A stretch of 36,971 nt of DNA, from positions 1 through 36,971 of IMG/VR virus record IMGVR_UViG_3300037337_000108; one strand, written 5' to 3'. The position numbers and the translations under genes are program-made. This document shows positions 236-35,532 of the stretch, one piece after another. Position 1 is the stretch's first letter; each line of letters begins with the position of its first letter. Source of the DNA: a virus. The notes beneath the pieces were generated by a model. It worked only from the letters and a program-made list of their open reading frames with translations. It searched no databases and was not told where the DNA came from.

Positions 236-898
236 TTAGCTACTTGCGGAAGCATTACGCTCAATCATCAATAAATCAGGTTTAAAAACATCCTTGACGT
301 CGGTATTAGGCTCAAAGGTGCTAAACTCCTTACGCTGTGGAATCTTCACGATGTTGCCGGCATGGATCTCCCGCAGGGTTCGCTCTATCAACCGCAACCC
401 CATAGCTTGCAACTCATGTTCCCACAGTATCTTTGCCGCCTTCTTTGGGTCAATACCATACAGCTTTGGGTCAATAAAGCAAATCTCCTGGTTAGCAATA
501 TCGCCACGATCTATCCCATTGTTGAGCCAAAACACCGTGCCACCTGTCACCGCATCGCGCATCCGCACCGCCCACTCAATAGACGAGCGTCCACGATGGC
601 GTGGCAACAAACTTGGGTGATAGCCAATCCACCCAAATTTTGCCTTATATCGCGTACGCTTGCCGATATAATCGAATGAATGAGCCGTTATACCTAAATC
701 TACATTATTAGGCATTGTGTCGCCGTTTAGCATTCCCGAAGGCACAATCGGAATTTCAAATATACGTGCTGTTTTACCGATATACTTATCGTCAAGCGCA
801 CAGCAAACACCAACCACTTCAACAAATTCTAAATTATTACACAAGTTCAACACCTGTTCGCCAAAATACTTTTGGCCACTTATAAAAACTCTAATCAT
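236..898 (-). CDS. Formyltransferase-fold enzyme of the modification cassette
   Basis: A 220-aa protein with the formyl_trans_N fold of methionyl-tRNA and GAR formyltransferases, which move a one-carbon unit from 10-formyl-tetrahydrofolate. The core is GWIGYHPSLLPRHRG (residues 89-103) followed by TGGTVFWLNNGIDRGDI (118-134). The catalytic His (H94) and Asp (D130) are present, but the usual Asn two residues before the His is Gly (G92). The C-terminal tRNA-binding domain of Fmt is absent, so initiator tRNA is an unlikely substrate. The start overlaps the acyltransferase stop by 8 nt, so the genes are probably co-translated. DNA here is visibly richer in GC than the tail genes. I infer that it supplies or transfers a one-carbon group in DNA-base modification; the substrate is unknown. 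Confidence 0.8.
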   Translation of the reverse strand: MIRVFISGQKYFGEQVLNLCNNLEFVEVVGVCCALDDKYIGKTARIFEIPIVPSGMLNGDTMPNNVDLGITAHSFDYIGKRTRYKAKFGWIGYHPSLLPRHRGRSSIEWAVRMRDAVTGGTVFWLNNGIDRGDIANQEICFIDPKLYGIDPKKAAKILWEHELQAMGLRLIERTLREIHAGNIVKIPQRKEFSTFEPNTDVKDVFKPDLLMIERNASASS

Positions 899-1319
899 TT
901 CCTAAATATTTAAAACTTTGAACCGCCCTAAAATGGCCACCATAACCGCAACCGGTTACACTCCCTTTTTTACCTGTTTTTACCATACTTGCATTACTTC
1001 TTTTTTTATTCGCGCCATAAAGCATCGCGCCAGTTTGTGTCCATTTTTGAGCGTTTCTCAAATAACCGCACAATTGAGGGTGTGACGTGTGAAAGAACGT
1101 GTGATACTTCCTTTGGCAACGTCCATTGCCCTCCAAGTGATATTGCATCACTTCATTTAAAAACGCCGTTCCAACTCCCGCGCCTTGCCACTCCGGCATA
1201 ACTACCAGTCGTGTCGCTCGATACGCATTTGCAGTAAACATCGGGCAAACCGCAACGTGAGCCACTAACTCACCATTTACCACACCGATAAAATATTCGG
1301 CAGCGGGTGGGTGTTTCAA
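891..1319 (-). CDS. Mom-like GNAT acyltransferase (5'-truncated in this frame)
   Basis: GNAT acyltransferase. The acyl-CoA pyrophosphate loop is RLVVMPEWQGAGVG (residues 37-50), followed by HTSHPQL (77-83), and the protein ends GGHFRAVQSFKYLG. This SHP...W...SF.Y.G pattern is that of acyltransferase domains fused to ABC ATPases (COG2401) and related to Mu Mom, which modifies adenine in phage DNA. TTG at 1319 is the first possible start by rule, but the frame stays open up to 1439. The added residues include KIDIFKVNGSYWKLFKEHYY, the conserved entry of this domain (W..F..HHYL), so real translation must begin upstream, probably by frameshift from the ATPase gene. It overlaps the formyltransferase gene by 8 nt. 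Confidence 0.8.
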   Translation of the reverse strand: MKHPPAAEYFIGVVNGELVAHVAVCPMFTANAYRATRLVVMPEWQGAGVGTAFLNEVMQYHLEGNGRCQRKYHTFFHTSHPQLCGYLRNAQKWTQTGAMLYGANKKRSNASMVKTGKKGSVTGCGYGGHFRAVQSFKYLGND

Positions 1320-1321
1320 AT

Positions 1322-2017
1322 CTAAATAATAATGCTCTTTAAAGAGCTTCCAATAACTTCCGTTGACTTTGAAAATATCAATTTTGATTTCAGGTCGCTT
1401 CCCGATTTCAATTTTTTTTTTAATACTTTGGTGTTTACGTCATACACCCAGTCTGGTTGAAGCCACTCGATAATATCATAATGGCACGATAATAAAACCA
1501 CTTTCTTTCCCTTGTTTTTCCTCCAATTCTTACCGAAGGCCAACGCGCCAACTTTCGCAATTTGTCGATCAATTACAGATGTAAATTCGTCAACCACCAC
1601 TTCATCTGGTGCATCAGAAACTAATCGAGCCAATCCAGCTCTAAACTGCTGACCGTTAGATAATGCATTGAACGGTCGTAGCCAAGAAGGAACATCACCA
1701 AGCCCAACCGATGCCAATGCTCCTGTAGCTTGATTAAAATCTCCAGTCGGCAAAATACAATCCACGATAGGCTTTGACGAATCCCAACCTTCATAAAGAT
1801 TGACTAATCTATCTTTGCCAAAAAATTGGCGCCCTAGCGATGTTTTACCACTTCCCGAAGTACCGACGATTAACCCGATACCCCAATCCATATCATCAAT
1901 CTCAATATTAAATTCCTGTGACCAGTTCGCGCCACTTTCGGCATTGAACAATGACTTTACTCTTTGAGCTCTGTAACTTTCAAACTCTTTACATGAATGA
2001 TTTACGTTAATTATCAT
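1322..2017 (-). CDS. ABC ATPase, COG2401 type, of the modification cassette
   Basis: ABC-class ATPase without membrane segments. Walker A is GTSGSGKT (52-59), the signature LSNGQ (119-123), Walker B VVVDE (140-144) followed by FTSVIDR, and the H-loop SCHYD (His 179). The phrases VVVDEFTSV.DR and SCHYDIIEWLQPDWVYD are characteristic of COG2401, where this ATPase is fused to a GNAT domain. Here frame 0 runs past residue 199 through an A10 tract and stops 30 residues later, while the GNAT sequence continues in -1. The gene starts inside the stop of a 45-aa gene (ATGA). It probably powers or gates DNA access for the acyltransferase; it is not a transporter component. Confidence 0.85.
   Translation of the reverse strand: MIINVNHSCKEFESYRAQRVKSLFNAESGANWSQEFNIEIDDMDWGIGLIVGTSGSGKTSLGRQFFGKDRLVNLYEGWDSSKPIVDCILPTGDFNQATGALASVGLGDVPSWLRPFNALSNGQQFRAGLARLVSDAPDEVVVDEFTSVIDRQIAKVGALAFGKNWRKNKGKKVVLLSCHYDIIEWLQPDWVYDVNTKVLKKKLKSGSDLKSKLIFSKSTEVIGSSLKSIII
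1412..1421 (-). other. A10 slippery tract joining ATPase and acyltransferase frames
   Basis: On the minus strand ten consecutive A follow TTATT... in the ATPase frame TTA AAA AAA AAA TTG. The acyltransferase frame is -1 relative to it (ATT AAA AAA AAA ATT). A AAA AAA is a well-known -1 heptamer, and homopolymers of this length also slip during transcription and replication. A shift here would give one protein of about 375 residues with the ABC-then-GNAT order of COG2401. The last about 30 residues of the ATPase read in frame 0 look like non-conserved filler. Confidence 0.7.
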
Positions 2018-31762: not shown

Positions 31763-32389
31763 TTAATCTTTAATTTGACTTCCGTGATACAGCATCGCTG
31801 TCTGATCATTAATTGTTATTATTCCTCCCGGACAGCGCCCTCCGACAAATGCTGTTAACCCTTCAACTCTAAAATACACGTTACACAATTTCTTTGCGAG
31901 CCGTGCGGTTGCCGTGGTTGGTTCATTTTTTTCCATGTGCGCCATTATGATGAATAGCGTGTCTGGAAATTGCCTTTTTAATCTTCGTAACACTGCCGTT
32001 TTCAAATCGTCGACGTAAGCGGTTGTATTATCAATTACCATTATTTTAGCCGATTGTCGTTTTGCTAAAATCGCCTCCATTTCGTTTATTTCGAGGTAGT
32101 CAAAGAAGCGAATTTTGGTATTCTTAAAATCAATTTTCGCTCGGGCTAAATTCTGCTGAAAGGTGAAACCAGTTCCTTCTTCAGCTGAAACAAAATTCAA
32201 TTTGTCAAATTTTGTAAGGTATTCAGCGAGCAAAAGTGCGAGGGTGGTCTTTCCGTTTTTTTCATTTCCAAAAATGACCCAAATCCCGCCTCGTTCTTGT
32301 TCACCTAAAATCTTTTCCCAAATGCCGTCAAACTTATAGGTCTTAAACGTCTTATTAAGCAGTGTTTTGGCTGTGATTCCATTTGCCAT
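31763..32389 (-). CDS. RecA-like P-loop ATPase next to MuB
   Basis: 208 aa. The P-loop GNEKNGKTT (41-49) follows GIWVIF, and Walker B is AKIMVIDNTTAYVDD (about 114-128), with IIMAHMEKNEPT as a sensor-like strand. The single-domain RecA/KaiC-like core lacks DNA-binding extensions. The start overlaps the MuB-like stop (TAATG). Mu has no equivalent in this place. It could aid transposition, replication or recombination; the role is unknown. Confidence 0.7.
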   Translation of the reverse strand: MANGITAKTLLNKTFKTYKFDGIWEKILGEQERGGIWVIFGNEKNGKTTLALLLAEYLTKFDKLNFVSAEEGTGFTFQQNLARAKIDFKNTKIRFFDYLEINEMEAILAKRQSAKIMVIDNTTAYVDDLKTAVLRRLKRQFPDTLFIIMAHMEKNEPTTATARLAKKLCNVYFRVEGLTAFVGGRCPGGIITINDQTAMLYHGSQIKD

Positions 32390-33267
32390 TAAACGCCTAT
32401 TTTAATAAGTGTTTCCAAATACCGAAGCGTTGTTTCCTTTGAAATGCACTTGTTGACTAGCGGCTTTATTTTCGATTTATCTTCAACATTCGCACTTGCA
32501 ACCGCTCCAATTAGTTCAGTGTAGTAGGCTTGGCGGTCGGCTTTCCCGTTTGGCACTAGCTTTATAAATTCATCGGAAAAGCGGCTAAATATTTCGGCAT
32601 ATCCCACTTTTTGAGCAGACAATCCTTTTTGTATTTTCTTTCTCAATCCATCCGCTCCCATCATGTACCAACCGCACACGCCGTCGGTTCCGTTCCAGAT
32701 TCCTTTTAGTTCCAAGAAGGCATCGTATTGCAAGTCGCCCGCTTCGTCAAGGATGATTAAAGGCTTTTCGAGCGTTGTAATGTAATATTTCACATTGTCA
32801 AGGATTTCATTGTACTTCCCGTTGTTATCAATACCGATGGTTCTGGCCAATAGCTTAATGAACATTTGCTTTGATTTGGCTTGCGAACAATCAACGTAAA
32901 ATGTGTTTTTCATTTTACGAATGATGTGCTTGGTGCAGAATGTTTTGCCAATTCCGCAATCGTCAACCAAAACCATTGATTTTGACAATTCTTTGCAAAA
33001 ACTCAAATTGTCCTCAATTTCTGTGTAAACAGACGTGCGTGCTACTTTCCAATTGTCCTCATATACTTTCACTTGAAGTAATCTTCCGATGGTAATCCAA
33101 GCGGTGTCGCTTAAAATCTTTTCGGTTTCGCCTTTTTTCAAGCGTGAAAAAACGGCGTTATTCATCTGCAATGATTTAGAAAAATCAGCATCTGAACCGC
33201 CATAATTGGCGCGCTTTTCTAAAATAGCTAATCTTACTTTTGCTTTAAAATCGTTTGTTAGGTTCAT
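32389..33267 (-). CDS. MuB-like AAA+ target-selection ATPase
   Basis: 292 aa. An N-terminal helix-turn-helix (SDADFSKSLQMNNAVFSRLK, 25-44) is followed by an AAA+ core with Walker A DDCGIGKT (102-109), Walker B LIILDEAG (170-177) and a sensor-like GWYMMGADGLRKK. MuB binds target DNA, delivers it to MuA and gives target immunity. It immediately follows the transposase gene (11 nt). Confidence 0.9.
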   Translation of the reverse strand: MNLTNDFKAKVRLAILEKRANYGGSDADFSKSLQMNNAVFSRLKKGETEKILSDTAWITIGRLLQVKVYEDNWKVARTSVYTEIEDNLSFCKELSKSMVLVDDCGIGKTFCTKHIIRKMKNTFYVDCSQAKSKQMFIKLLARTIGIDNNGKYNEILDNVKYYITTLEKPLIILDEAGDLQYDAFLELKGIWNGTDGVCGWYMMGADGLRKKIQKGLSAQKVGYAEIFSRFSDEFIKLVPNGKADRQAYYTELIGAVASANVEDKSKIKPLVNKCISKETTLRYLETLIKIGV

Positions 33268-33278
33268 TTTTGGTGTTT

Positions 33279-35315
33279 TTATAGGTTAAAATTAGATCGC
33301 CATCCAGGAGCGGCATTTGTACTTGGTTGAAATTCTTCTTCGGTGTCTTGATCGTCTGCGAATACTTCCACTGGTTCTTCTTTTACTTCAAATCGCTTCA
33401 AGTTTGAAATTTTGAAATTTGAGTTAACAGTTTGAGGCGTTCCGTCAATGATCTGTATATTCTCAATCTTGTTTCGCTGGCGTTTTTCAAAGGCTTCAAC
33501 CGATAGCGCGTAGGCACTTTGAATTTTCAACGCTTCCGCATCAGCATCGGTGCGTTCGATTCTTGCGCGGTTGTATTTAGGCATTTCCATCACTTCACAA
33601 ATCACCCGGTTATTCAAATAAACCAAGGCTTTCATCACTTGACCGTCGTTGCCGTCTAACCAGTAAACATCAAACTCTTTGCCTTCAATAACTCGCATTT
33701 TCTGAATAAGAGCTTCGCCAGTGAGGATTTTGCCGTCTTCCGCTAATGCTCTTTTTTGTCCTTGCAGTCGGATGTAGCCAACGTTGCAGGAAGTGGTTGT
33801 CTGGTGTCCAATTACTGGAAGGATCGCTTCCCAATTGGTCGGCTTTAAGTTCGGGTTTTGGTTGGCCGTGAAATAATCCCAACGGCTCAAGCCTTTATTT
33901 TCTGGATGTTCTGAATTGTTCCATTTTTCGAGTTCCAAAAGCCGCTCGTTAACCAAAATATCGTAGGGAATGATTTCTTTTTTTGCAGCACTCAACTGGT
34001 TGGCTTCACTTTTCGCTGTTGGTCGTGCAAGCCATCCCGATGCTGATTTTTCAACCTCATACCGGAGCTTTCCGTTCATACGCTCGATGTATTTTCCTCT
34101 GGCGTTATTGGCTTCGATTTTAACTTCTTGGAACATTGCACCAGGGCGAAGTAATGTGTCTTTAAAACTACTATTTAACGAACTTTCGCACTCTAGTTCG
34201 TACGGAAGACAAAATCCCCATTCTGTGTAGTTCCGAACCATCTGACGATAGAAGTCAACGATGATCCCCTCTTTGGTTTTTCCGTAAACGAAAGTTGTGA
34301 AACATTGCGAAGCGATATCAACGCCAAGATAGAACCAAACCCGATCGCCTTTTGTATTGTAAACAAATGGCGGTTGTCTGTCATCAATGGAAATGATTGA
34401 TCCCGCTAATTTTGGTAATTCCATTTGATGGTGTGGCGTGAAACTTCCCATATAGACCTGACGGTCGCCACTTCTAGCCTTGTGGGTTGCGATCTTATTT
34501 TCCCACTTGTTTATGTAGCTGATCACAGTTGTGTTAGATAACGATTTGAAGCCTTTTGGGTCGTACATTTCGCCCGTTTCCTGATTATAGACTTCCGCGT
34601 ATCCGTTTAGGAATGCGTCGTAATTTCGAGCCACTTCGGTAGGCGTTGGCTTGTGCAATTGATTTTTGAATAGGCCGTTGAAAATCATTTCGGTGCGGTC
34701 ATCTACCTTTCGAGCGTTATTGATGCGTCCGCCTTCTGGGTCCTTGATCAATGGAAAGTATAAATCGGTTTTGCACGATTTTATAAGCATTTTGAACTGT
34801 TTTTCAGAACCTGGCAAATTGTGCGACACCTCATGTTTTACCTTCAGGGTGTTATTGAATTTCTCAACGTCCTTTACAACAGTTGCCATAATTCCACGTA
34901 GCGATCCTTTTAGCTTGATGCGTTCTTGCGTTCGCGCCTGTTCTAATTTAATAGCTGCTTTCATTACAGAAGCGTTGATGATGTACCGTTCCTGTTCGTC
35001 GGCCTCTAATTTGTTACCAGCACGTTTGAACCGTGAATAGTAACGCACTGCATCAGCATCGAACTCAAAGAACGTCTCCAACGGATTGTCAACACGTCTT
35101 GGATCACCAAGTGCTTCTTGGATATGTGGCTTTAGGGTGTCGAAGTCGATGAGCAACTTGCGACCGTTACCTCCAACTTGCAACCGCTTAATTCCGAACG
35201 GCTTTTCTTGGTAGCGTTGGATTTCTTTTTGAAGCGATCCAAGCGTATTCCAAAAACTAGGAATCAAATCGTCTGACTCGACCGCAATATTATTATTTGA
35301 AAATAGGTAGGCCAT
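33279..35315 (-). CDS. MuA-like DDE transposase
   Basis: 678 aa from ATG 35315 (MAYLFSNNNIAVESDDLIPS); a longer start lies over the preceding gene and was rejected. The catalytic rve core shows the first Asp in IISIDDRQPPF (D311/D312), a second strand LPYELECESSLNSSF (about 371-385) where a Glu stands where MuA has Asp, and the final Glu in NNARGKYIERMNGKL (E412). A basic C-terminal domain follows. It catalyses strand transfer in integration and replicative transposition. Confidence 0.9.
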   Translation of the reverse strand: MAYLFSNNNIAVESDDLIPSFWNTLGSLQKEIQRYQEKPFGIKRLQVGGNGRKLLIDFDTLKPHIQEALGDPRRVDNPLETFFEFDADAVRYYSRFKRAGNKLEADEQERYIINASVMKAAIKLEQARTQERIKLKGSLRGIMATVVKDVEKFNNTLKVKHEVSHNLPGSEKQFKMLIKSCKTDLYFPLIKDPEGGRINNARKVDDRTEMIFNGLFKNQLHKPTPTEVARNYDAFLNGYAEVYNQETGEMYDPKGFKSLSNTTVISYINKWENKIATHKARSGDRQVYMGSFTPHHQMELPKLAGSIISIDDRQPPFVYNTKGDRVWFYLGVDIASQCFTTFVYGKTKEGIIVDFYRQMVRNYTEWGFCLPYELECESSLNSSFKDTLLRPGAMFQEVKIEANNARGKYIERMNGKLRYEVEKSASGWLARPTAKSEANQLSAAKKEIIPYDILVNERLLELEKWNNSEHPENKGLSRWDYFTANQNPNLKPTNWEAILPVIGHQTTTSCNVGYIRLQGQKRALAEDGKILTGEALIQKMRVIEGKEFDVYWLDGNDGQVMKALVYLNNRVICEVMEMPKYNRARIERTDADAEALKIQSAYALSVEAFEKRQRNKIENIQIIDGTPQTVNSNFKISNLKRFEVKEEPVEVFADDQDTEEEFQPSTNAAPGWRSNFNL

Positions 35316-35319
35316 AATA

Positions 35320-35532
35320 TTATAGTGTTTTGTCAATAAGATTTTGAACAGTTGCTTTGTTAGCATTTTCCATTGTCAGGTAGTCTTTCTTGATAGCATC
35401 TGGCGTAACTCCTTGTTTATTTCCGTTGATACTTTGGCGGATGTAATATTTTGAAAGTCCATATTTTAAAAACAATGCATCTAAAATGTTTGAATCATAG
35501 GATTTATACTTTTTTGTTATACTTTTGTTCAT
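35320..35532 (-). CDS. Small DNA-binding-like protein in Ner position
   Basis: 70 aa. A helix-turn-helix-like stretch (ILDALFLKYGLSKYYIRQSI, 16-35) follows a basic start. First gene after the early promoter, directly before the transposase, which is the place of Ner in Mu. Role as early repressor of lysogenic or early transcription is inferred. Confidence 0.6.
   Translation of the reverse strand: MNKSITKKYKSYDSNILDALFLKYGLSKYYIRQSINGNKQGVTPDAIKKDYLTMENANKATVQNLIDKTL

Follow-up and report, generated by a model that had tools for sequence, protein, structure and literature searches.

The left end of the virus record IMGVR_UViG_3300037337_000108, a Mu-like element whose full 36,971 bases we call the window, carries an ATPase-GNAT locus in which an ABC-type ATPase and an acyltransferase domain lie in different frames, divided at a run of ten A residues. 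Are these two genes, one broken gene, or one gene read in two frames? Comparison of the locus with its relatives makes it very probable that the two open reading frames form a single gene whose expression involves a programmed change of frame, and both resulting products appear to be needed.

On the minus strand, frame 0 at the junction reads ...GTA TTA AAA AAA AAA TTG... (Table 1). The ATPase frame comprises an ATPase domain of about residues 1-195 and, 3' of the tract, a 29-residue tail, and matches PF00005 (E 5.7e-06). The GNAT frame is open from the tract onward, and the region read in both frames closes at the frame-0 TAG (1322-1324), a stop position common to the family. The 45-aa ORF, the ATPase ORF, the GNAT frame and the formyltransferase-like gene overlap successively, all on the minus strand. 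By arithmetic, a -1 shift at the A10 tract would join 202 residues to 173, giving 375. The profile of PHROG 11143 (357 positions) covers both parts, with ATPase residues 2-202 aligning to positions 2-194 (E 2e-83) and positions 198-351 matching the -1-frame GNAT (E 7.8e-54), so both parts are read there as one protein. An earlier note on this DNA had described an ATPase and acyltransferase split at the A10 tract, with the latter in the -1 frame. This split is an observation, borne out by our reading of the window and by PHROG 11143. The domain entry has no start codon, also as described: the first ATG, GTG or TTG after the tract is the TTG at 1319, which lies past the conserved entry.

Table 1. 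Features located in the window
Feature	Positions	Strand	Basis and remarks
Formyltransferase-like gene	236..898	-	PF00551, E 2.5e-16; phrog_9240; 8-nt overlap with end of GNAT frame
GNAT acyltransferase domain, -1 frame	891..1412	-	173 codons plus stop at 891-893; PF00583, E 3.7e-07
Dual-frame overlap	1322..1411	-	frame-0 tail of short product plus first GNAT strand and helix
ABC-type ATPase ORF, frame 0	1322..2017	-	231 codons; TAG at 1322-1324
A10 slippery tract, putative -1 frame-change site	1412..1421	-	frame 0 TTA AAA AAA AAA
Small conserved upstream ORF, 45 aa	2014..2151	-	phrog_28816; 4-nt overlap with ATPase start
DNA transposition protein, like MuB	32389-33267		phrog_296
Mu-type transposase	33279-35366		phrog_310

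Relatives were collected in three viral scans and one genome scan, taking the best 80 of 265, 259, 253 and 386 relatives, a sample that favours loci close to the window and to two other split ones. Merging identical junction sequences reduced the 261 loci with both domains, the window counted, to 159. In 64 of these distinct loci, the window among them, the gene is split with the GNAT at -1; 93 carry the ABC ATPase and GNAT domain in frame in one protein; and two are disrupted. The latter, the Tenacibaculum piscium and Riemerella columbipharyngis copies (L191 and L242, respectively, the second with an A8 tract), look frame-disrupted, unlike other members of the A-tract clades, and were dropped from later counts. 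Four loci stand outside the classification, namely L001 (the window's own record, plus-strand matches only), L023 and L183 (no GNAT near) and L263 (motif not found). The homologues share descent, and locus counts are not independent.

At the junction of every one of the 64 split loci, 35 or 38 nt past the start of the PDW motif, stands a heptamer in frame, either A_AAA_AAA or A_AAA_AAG; in the window, the earlier note had read the frame-0 A AAA AAA as allowing a -1 shift. Over these genes, A_AAA_AA[AG] heptamers in the ATPase frame occur 106 times at the junction (more than the number of genes, as long tracts contain two) and five times elsewhere, and the junction heptamer is therefore not a product of chance; runs of seven or more A residues in any frame number 62 at the junction and 33 elsewhere. 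Comparing tract length in related phages, as the earlier note had proposed, gave A9-A11 in 53 split loci (A10 in the window), A7 in nine and A6G in two, such that a long homopolymer is not found in the 11 short-tract loci. All 64 split loci close frame 0 with TAG. The split and its tract are kept down to 57% ATPase identity to the window, and a programmed frame change at the junction, whether by ribosomal -1 shifting or by transcript slippage, is strongly supported by this comparison. The 23 distinct A-tract loci sampled from named genomes all belong to Bacteroidota, including Flavobacterium, Tenacibaculum, Chryseobacterium and a Capnocytophaga metagenome-assembled genome (MAG).

Of the four options in the earlier note, programmed frameshifting and transcript slippage both amount to such a frame change; the other two, replicative phase variation and a decay or assembly error, did not fare as well. 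Error or decay might be suspected from L003, a locus 98% identical to the window that is in frame with an A11 tract, from L242 and L191, which look off-phase, and from two split copies (L014 and L015) with an extra early stop in the ATPase frame. The same split nevertheless recurs in independent metagenomes and in isolates including Flavobacterium sasangense, F. palustre and several Chryseobacterium, and stands twice, both times with A9, in the complete chromosome of Chryseobacterium sp. ZHDP1. Assembly error is thus contradicted, and for the clade as a whole, in which both frames are open, the overlap is constrained and heptamer and TAG are universal, so is decay; we regard either as having next to no probability. 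A DNA-level switch of a modification enzyme by change in tract length is slightly easier to entertain. A run of more than five A residues stands at the junction of only two of the 93 in-frame loci, L003 and L203 (A10), and both adjoin split copies on the tree, L003 with the window and L002, and L203 with L027-L029, L194 and L195. Changes in tract length can thus plainly fuse the gene. Nonetheless, the frame is changed at the tract in only three (L003, L203 and L242) of the 68 distinct loci with at least A6, and one would not expect a phase-variable gene to come in A7 and A6G versions equipped with RNA stimulators, making phase variation improbable as the main role of the tract. A further alternative, that the GNAT is initiated separately and coupled translationally to the ATPase stop, draws on the TTG that lies closely 3' of that stop in the window and on the TTG, GTG or ATG codons present in the overlap of some relatives. 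Between the preceding stop and the HYL motif, however, the GNAT frame of 44 of the 64 split loci has none of these codons, and only two have ATG. In an AlphaFold model of the natural in-frame fusion L003 (25-sequence alignment, mean pLDDT 78, pTM 0.69), the first GNAT strand (214-218) and helix (220-226) both lie inside the overlap, and a start at the window's TTG, which would fall at about residue 234, would lose them. Separate initiation is therefore very improbable, though less so than error or decay.

The in-frame relatives, too, show signs of recoding. A CTT codon stands at the junction in 78 of the 93 loci, with 16.0 expected from each gene's own Leu usage (not from a phylogenetic model), and the 30 CTT genes with a GC content of 0.58 or more use CTT for 13% of their own Leu codons on average. 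The other 15 loci have CCC (six), CAT (three), GCC (one), an in-frame A tract (two) or, in the exceptions L158, L179 and L182, no CTT or like codon; CCC is a +1 shift codon in Listeria phages (PMC5009743). The codon after CTT is a sense codon in all 78 loci, with no in-frame stop right after. Just 5' of CTT, 36 of the 78 loci carry a Shine-Dalgarno (SD)-like element within the top 1.5% of the gene's own anti-SD sites, and in 18 it is the single best such site of the gene. In 24 of the 36, exactly 3 nt separate the end of the purine run from CTT, and in the other 12 the gap is 0-2 nt. As our automated pick took another CTT in L061, where the real one has AGGGGG, the division into SD and SD-free loci is better given as 37 and 41. 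The residues encoded by the element vary (RG, GR, RR, WR) and the element itself is kept. Where the sampled loci come from named genomes, all 10 with the SD form lie outside Bacteroidota, whereas 24 of the 26 with the SD-free form are from Bacteroidota; the element is absent before CTT in the 24 named Bacteroidota CTT loci.

With the GNAT as reference, the +1 frame of these relatives corresponds to frame 0 in the split loci, and it ends at the same place. A +1-frame stop at the Leu of the HYL motif was present in 150 of 150 loci scored, against an expectation of 61.5 that takes account of each gene's Leu codon usage and of the following base, again not of a phylogenetic model. These 150 come from 157 loci; outside the tally are two A6G loci, two in-frame A-tract loci and three loci with Met at that place. 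By the same ruler the +1 stop of L037 falls at codon 35, at the same motif, and L259 has a further +1-frame stop before its own GCC codon. Neither this shared stop nor the +1 site was within view of the earlier note. Divergence at fourfold sites was lower in the overlap than downstream for the split set (0.40 against 0.69), the A10-A11 loci (0.23 against 0.62) and the SD-free CTT set (0.39 against 0.69), but hardly lower in the SD set (0.60 against 0.63), in which a selected tail is therefore unsupported. Taken with the stop data, these values indicate that the place of the stop is kept nearly everywhere, whereas only the Bacteroidota-type sets show clear constraint on the overlap. Part of that constraint in the A7 loci must come from an RNA stem.

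This stem, of 9 bp and located 5 nt 3' of the tract in the nine A7 loci, shows covariation, as three of its nine pairs are changed on both sides and only one of 81 cells is broken. The two loci with A6G only (A_AAA_AAG; L087 and L248) have SD-like GCGGGAGGG and GAGGGAGGG 9 nt upstream, which rank as the second-best and best anti-SD sites of their own genes, and a strong stem 4-7 nt after the A6. Regions downstream of short tracts (n=11) are more structured than those downstream of long ones (n=53), with a minimum free energy of -14.1 vs -8.2 (Mann-Whitney p 1.5e-6) and a folding z of -2.27 vs -0.52 (p 8.4e-5). The covarying stem and the SD-like element with its stem favour ribosomal -1 frameshifting as the probable event in A7 and A6G members.

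For the A9-A11 genes, including the window, RNA polymerase might instead slip, yielding mRNAs with one extra A that need no special ribosomal event. Such slippage would keep the two products and move the shift to transcription, and we give it serious weight, somewhat short of an even chance. It fits the 9-11 A residues of these loci and the failure to find conserved downstream RNA structure in alignments of A10-A11 loci (18 of 25, the window's group) and of A9 loci (24 sequences, 23 of the 28 A9 loci plus L085), as well as the lack of an SD-like element beside the window's tract (anti-SD rank 0.54). Against it, the same site in relatives is A7 with a covarying stem or A6G with an SD-like element and stem, and A9G members hold A_AAA_AAG, which in E. 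coli is shiftier than A_AAA_AAA and others (PMC5009743). The weaker shifting of A_AAA_AAA in E. coli and the lack of a conserved RNA stimulator in the A9 and A10 alignments weigh, for their part, against the programmed frame-change reading. Long tracts seem to replace RNA stimulators, and at the unstructured A10, polymerase slippage and a ribosomal shift appear about as likely.

Under the two-product reading that we prefer, decoding in frame 0 would give a 231-aa ABC ATPase ending at the conserved stop, and the fraction shifting -1 at the A tract would give an ATPase-GNAT fusion of 375 aa, probably the enzyme for which Iyer, Aravind and colleagues predicted DNA acylation. Both forms appear to be required. 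In most relatives the 0 frame would encode the fusion, and a prfB-like site would shift some ribosomes +1 to the same stop, yielding the short ATPase; the window's clade would be inverted, with the short form as default and -1 shifting leading to the fusion. Polymerase slippage, ribosomal slippage or both may act in the A9-A11 loci, the window among them. The case is built by comparison, on the conserved tract and stop, the absent starts, the conserved CTT and SD-like element and the covarying A7 stem. From it we infer that shifting occurs at some rate, that mixed ATPase/ATPase-GNAT dimers assemble and that the target is DNA; the ratio of ATPase to ATPase-GNAT would then set the make-up of the ABC dimer.

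More distant phages extend the pattern. Of 81 phage records found, 15 were taken, 11 of them in frame. Five of the 11 have CTT, among them Leptospira LE4 (AGG AGG TTG CTT TGG C), Pasteurella Pmp13 (CGG AGG TCG CTT TGG C) and Pseudoalteromonas SL25 (AGG GGG AGT CTT AGG C). In two actinophages GGAGG is followed by GTT, and Pseudomonas Komp_PAO1_1 carries CAT; a further three (L273, L274 and L276) are without CTT, GTT or CAT; in the last, Aeromonas AsFcp_2, the +1 stop at the motif is also absent. Across the family, L275, L277, L267, L240, L246 and L250 keep a G-rich SD-like element, with GTT or CAT rather than CTT as the codon at the putative shift position. The remaining four phages, all of Firmicutes (Lactococcus P335, Streptococcus Javan141 and MismyG, and Oenococcus Vinitor-27), share a -1 split and a U-rich junction with related viral contigs (L280-L292). 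This group of 17 loci (L270, L271 and L278-L292), several near-identical, has GTT TTT CAA or CGA at the junction in 14 and a T8 run in L292, and no classical heptamer is common to all 17. Annotations, where present, treat the parts as separate genes or as hypothetical ones. In L280 the GNAT frame is interrupted by stops further along.

How the recoding types are related was explored with a quick tree of 166 rows. Its outgroup rows did not form one side of a branch, leaving the root unsure; as rooted, the SD-CTT type lies around the base, and nested inside are the SD-free CTT type plus two clades with A tracts (SH-aLRT 98 for the one of 54 rows, 100 for the one of 12). The A-tract trait requires two changes on this tree, and an AU test of one clade did not reject a single origin (p 0.315). 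We propose that Bacteroidota lost the SD-assisted +1 site and that one or two of their lineages replaced it with A-tract -1 shifting, inverting the default. The anti-SD is occluded in Bacteroidia and altered in Weeksellaceae, which also have no prfB frameshift, and shifting at the prfB motif is poor in F. johnsoniae (PMC8710568, PMC12421855). SD-dependent +1 shifting is not impossible there, however, since the SD-like prfB site persists in 523 of 726 Bacteroidia genomes, that of F. johnsoniae among them (PMC8710568), and the SD-like elements beside A6G in L087 and in L248, the Capnocytophaga MAG, argue against an occluded anti-SD as the driver. On balance we think it reasonably probable that the family keeps two products while the direction of recoding and the default product are inverted. 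Outside Bacteroidota, this would mean SD-assisted +1 shifting at a CUU followed by a sense codon, with the fusion as default; Bacteroidia would have an SD-free CUU, other Bacteroidota A-tract -1 shifting with the short form as default, possibly as their ribosomes hide or alter the anti-SD, and Firmicutes phages a further, U-rich site for -1 shifting. If so, a prfB-like cassette would be working outside prfB, opposite frameshift solutions would have been switched in nature, and the choice between them may be tied to ribosome biology, namely the anti-SD state of Bacteroidia and Weeksellaceae.

Whatever the recoding type, the ATPase-GNAT gene sits in most loci between the formyltransferase-like gene and the 45-aa ORF. 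The formyltransferase neighbour is present in 49 of 53 A9-A11, nine of nine A7, 36 of 42 SD-free CTT and 23 of 36 SD CTT loci, with three, none, five and six, respectively, of the loci without it having too little sequence to tell. This suggests a modification cassette of three genes. The best 60 of 122 matches in a PDB sequence search and the 50 matches listed in a fold search held generic ABC ATPases; NCBIfam gave only matches under curated cut-offs, and PADLOC weak partial ones. No title or abstract in the open-access literature searched describes this frameshift, and a text search did not find the word 'frameshift' in the hankyphage paper (PMC12135933) or the ParB-fold paper (PMC12704722). 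If the two-product reading holds, a large recoded gene family from outside virion structure would join the known programmed phage frameshifts. Gene calling would miss one product of each gene, the short form in fused relatives and the fusion in split ones, and knowledge of the two conserved forms would give biochemical work on the predicted DNA acyl-modification system a definite starting point.

Several known systems share parts of this design. Mu Mom, like this protein, has a GNAT fold, and the window's gene lies at one end of a Mu-like phage record; Mom is, however, a GNAT without this ATPase. By its domains the window's ATPase-GNAT would belong to the predicted DNA-modification family, with acyl modification of a DNA base as a prediction: the same ABC ATPase-GNAT pair has been named as a predicted DNA-acyl-modification system, although the description given of it there does not mention frameshifting (PMC7824862). 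The A_AAA_AAG heptamer of the A6G and A9G members is identical to that of dnaX, the SD-like element and stem around the tract in L087 and L248 have the dnaX layout, and in both cases the two products share an ATPase N-terminus. The dnaX shift yields a truncated product, whereas the -1 shift here would yield the extended one, and in most members the A tract is longer and no conserved stem accompanies it. The prfB (RF2) cassette consists of AGGGGG, three nucleotides and CTT (AGGGGG UAU CUU UGA C; PMC8710568, PMC12421855). Many in-frame relatives have AGGGGG or GGGAGG, usually a 3-nt spacer, and CTT, and L068 is identical over AGGGGGTATCTT; the next codon is nevertheless a sense codon (CGG, TGG, AGG, CAA, CGA and others) rather than UGA, and +1 shifting would lead to a truncated rather than full-length product. 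The predicted site of the in-frame relatives is thus one that would work like the prfB +1 site without belonging to that type. The Ty1 +1 site, CUU AGG C (PMC5009743), is matched exactly as CTT AGG C in L034, L061 and phage SL25 (L268), but here the ribosomes are bacterial, and L061 and L268 add an SD-like AGGGGG. Finally, related phages also reach the second product of tail and capsid genes by different shift directions, as in lambda G/GT and in Listeria PSA and A118 (PMC5009743), whereas in the present family the gene encodes a predicted DNA-modification enzyme and the default product itself appears to be inverted between clades.
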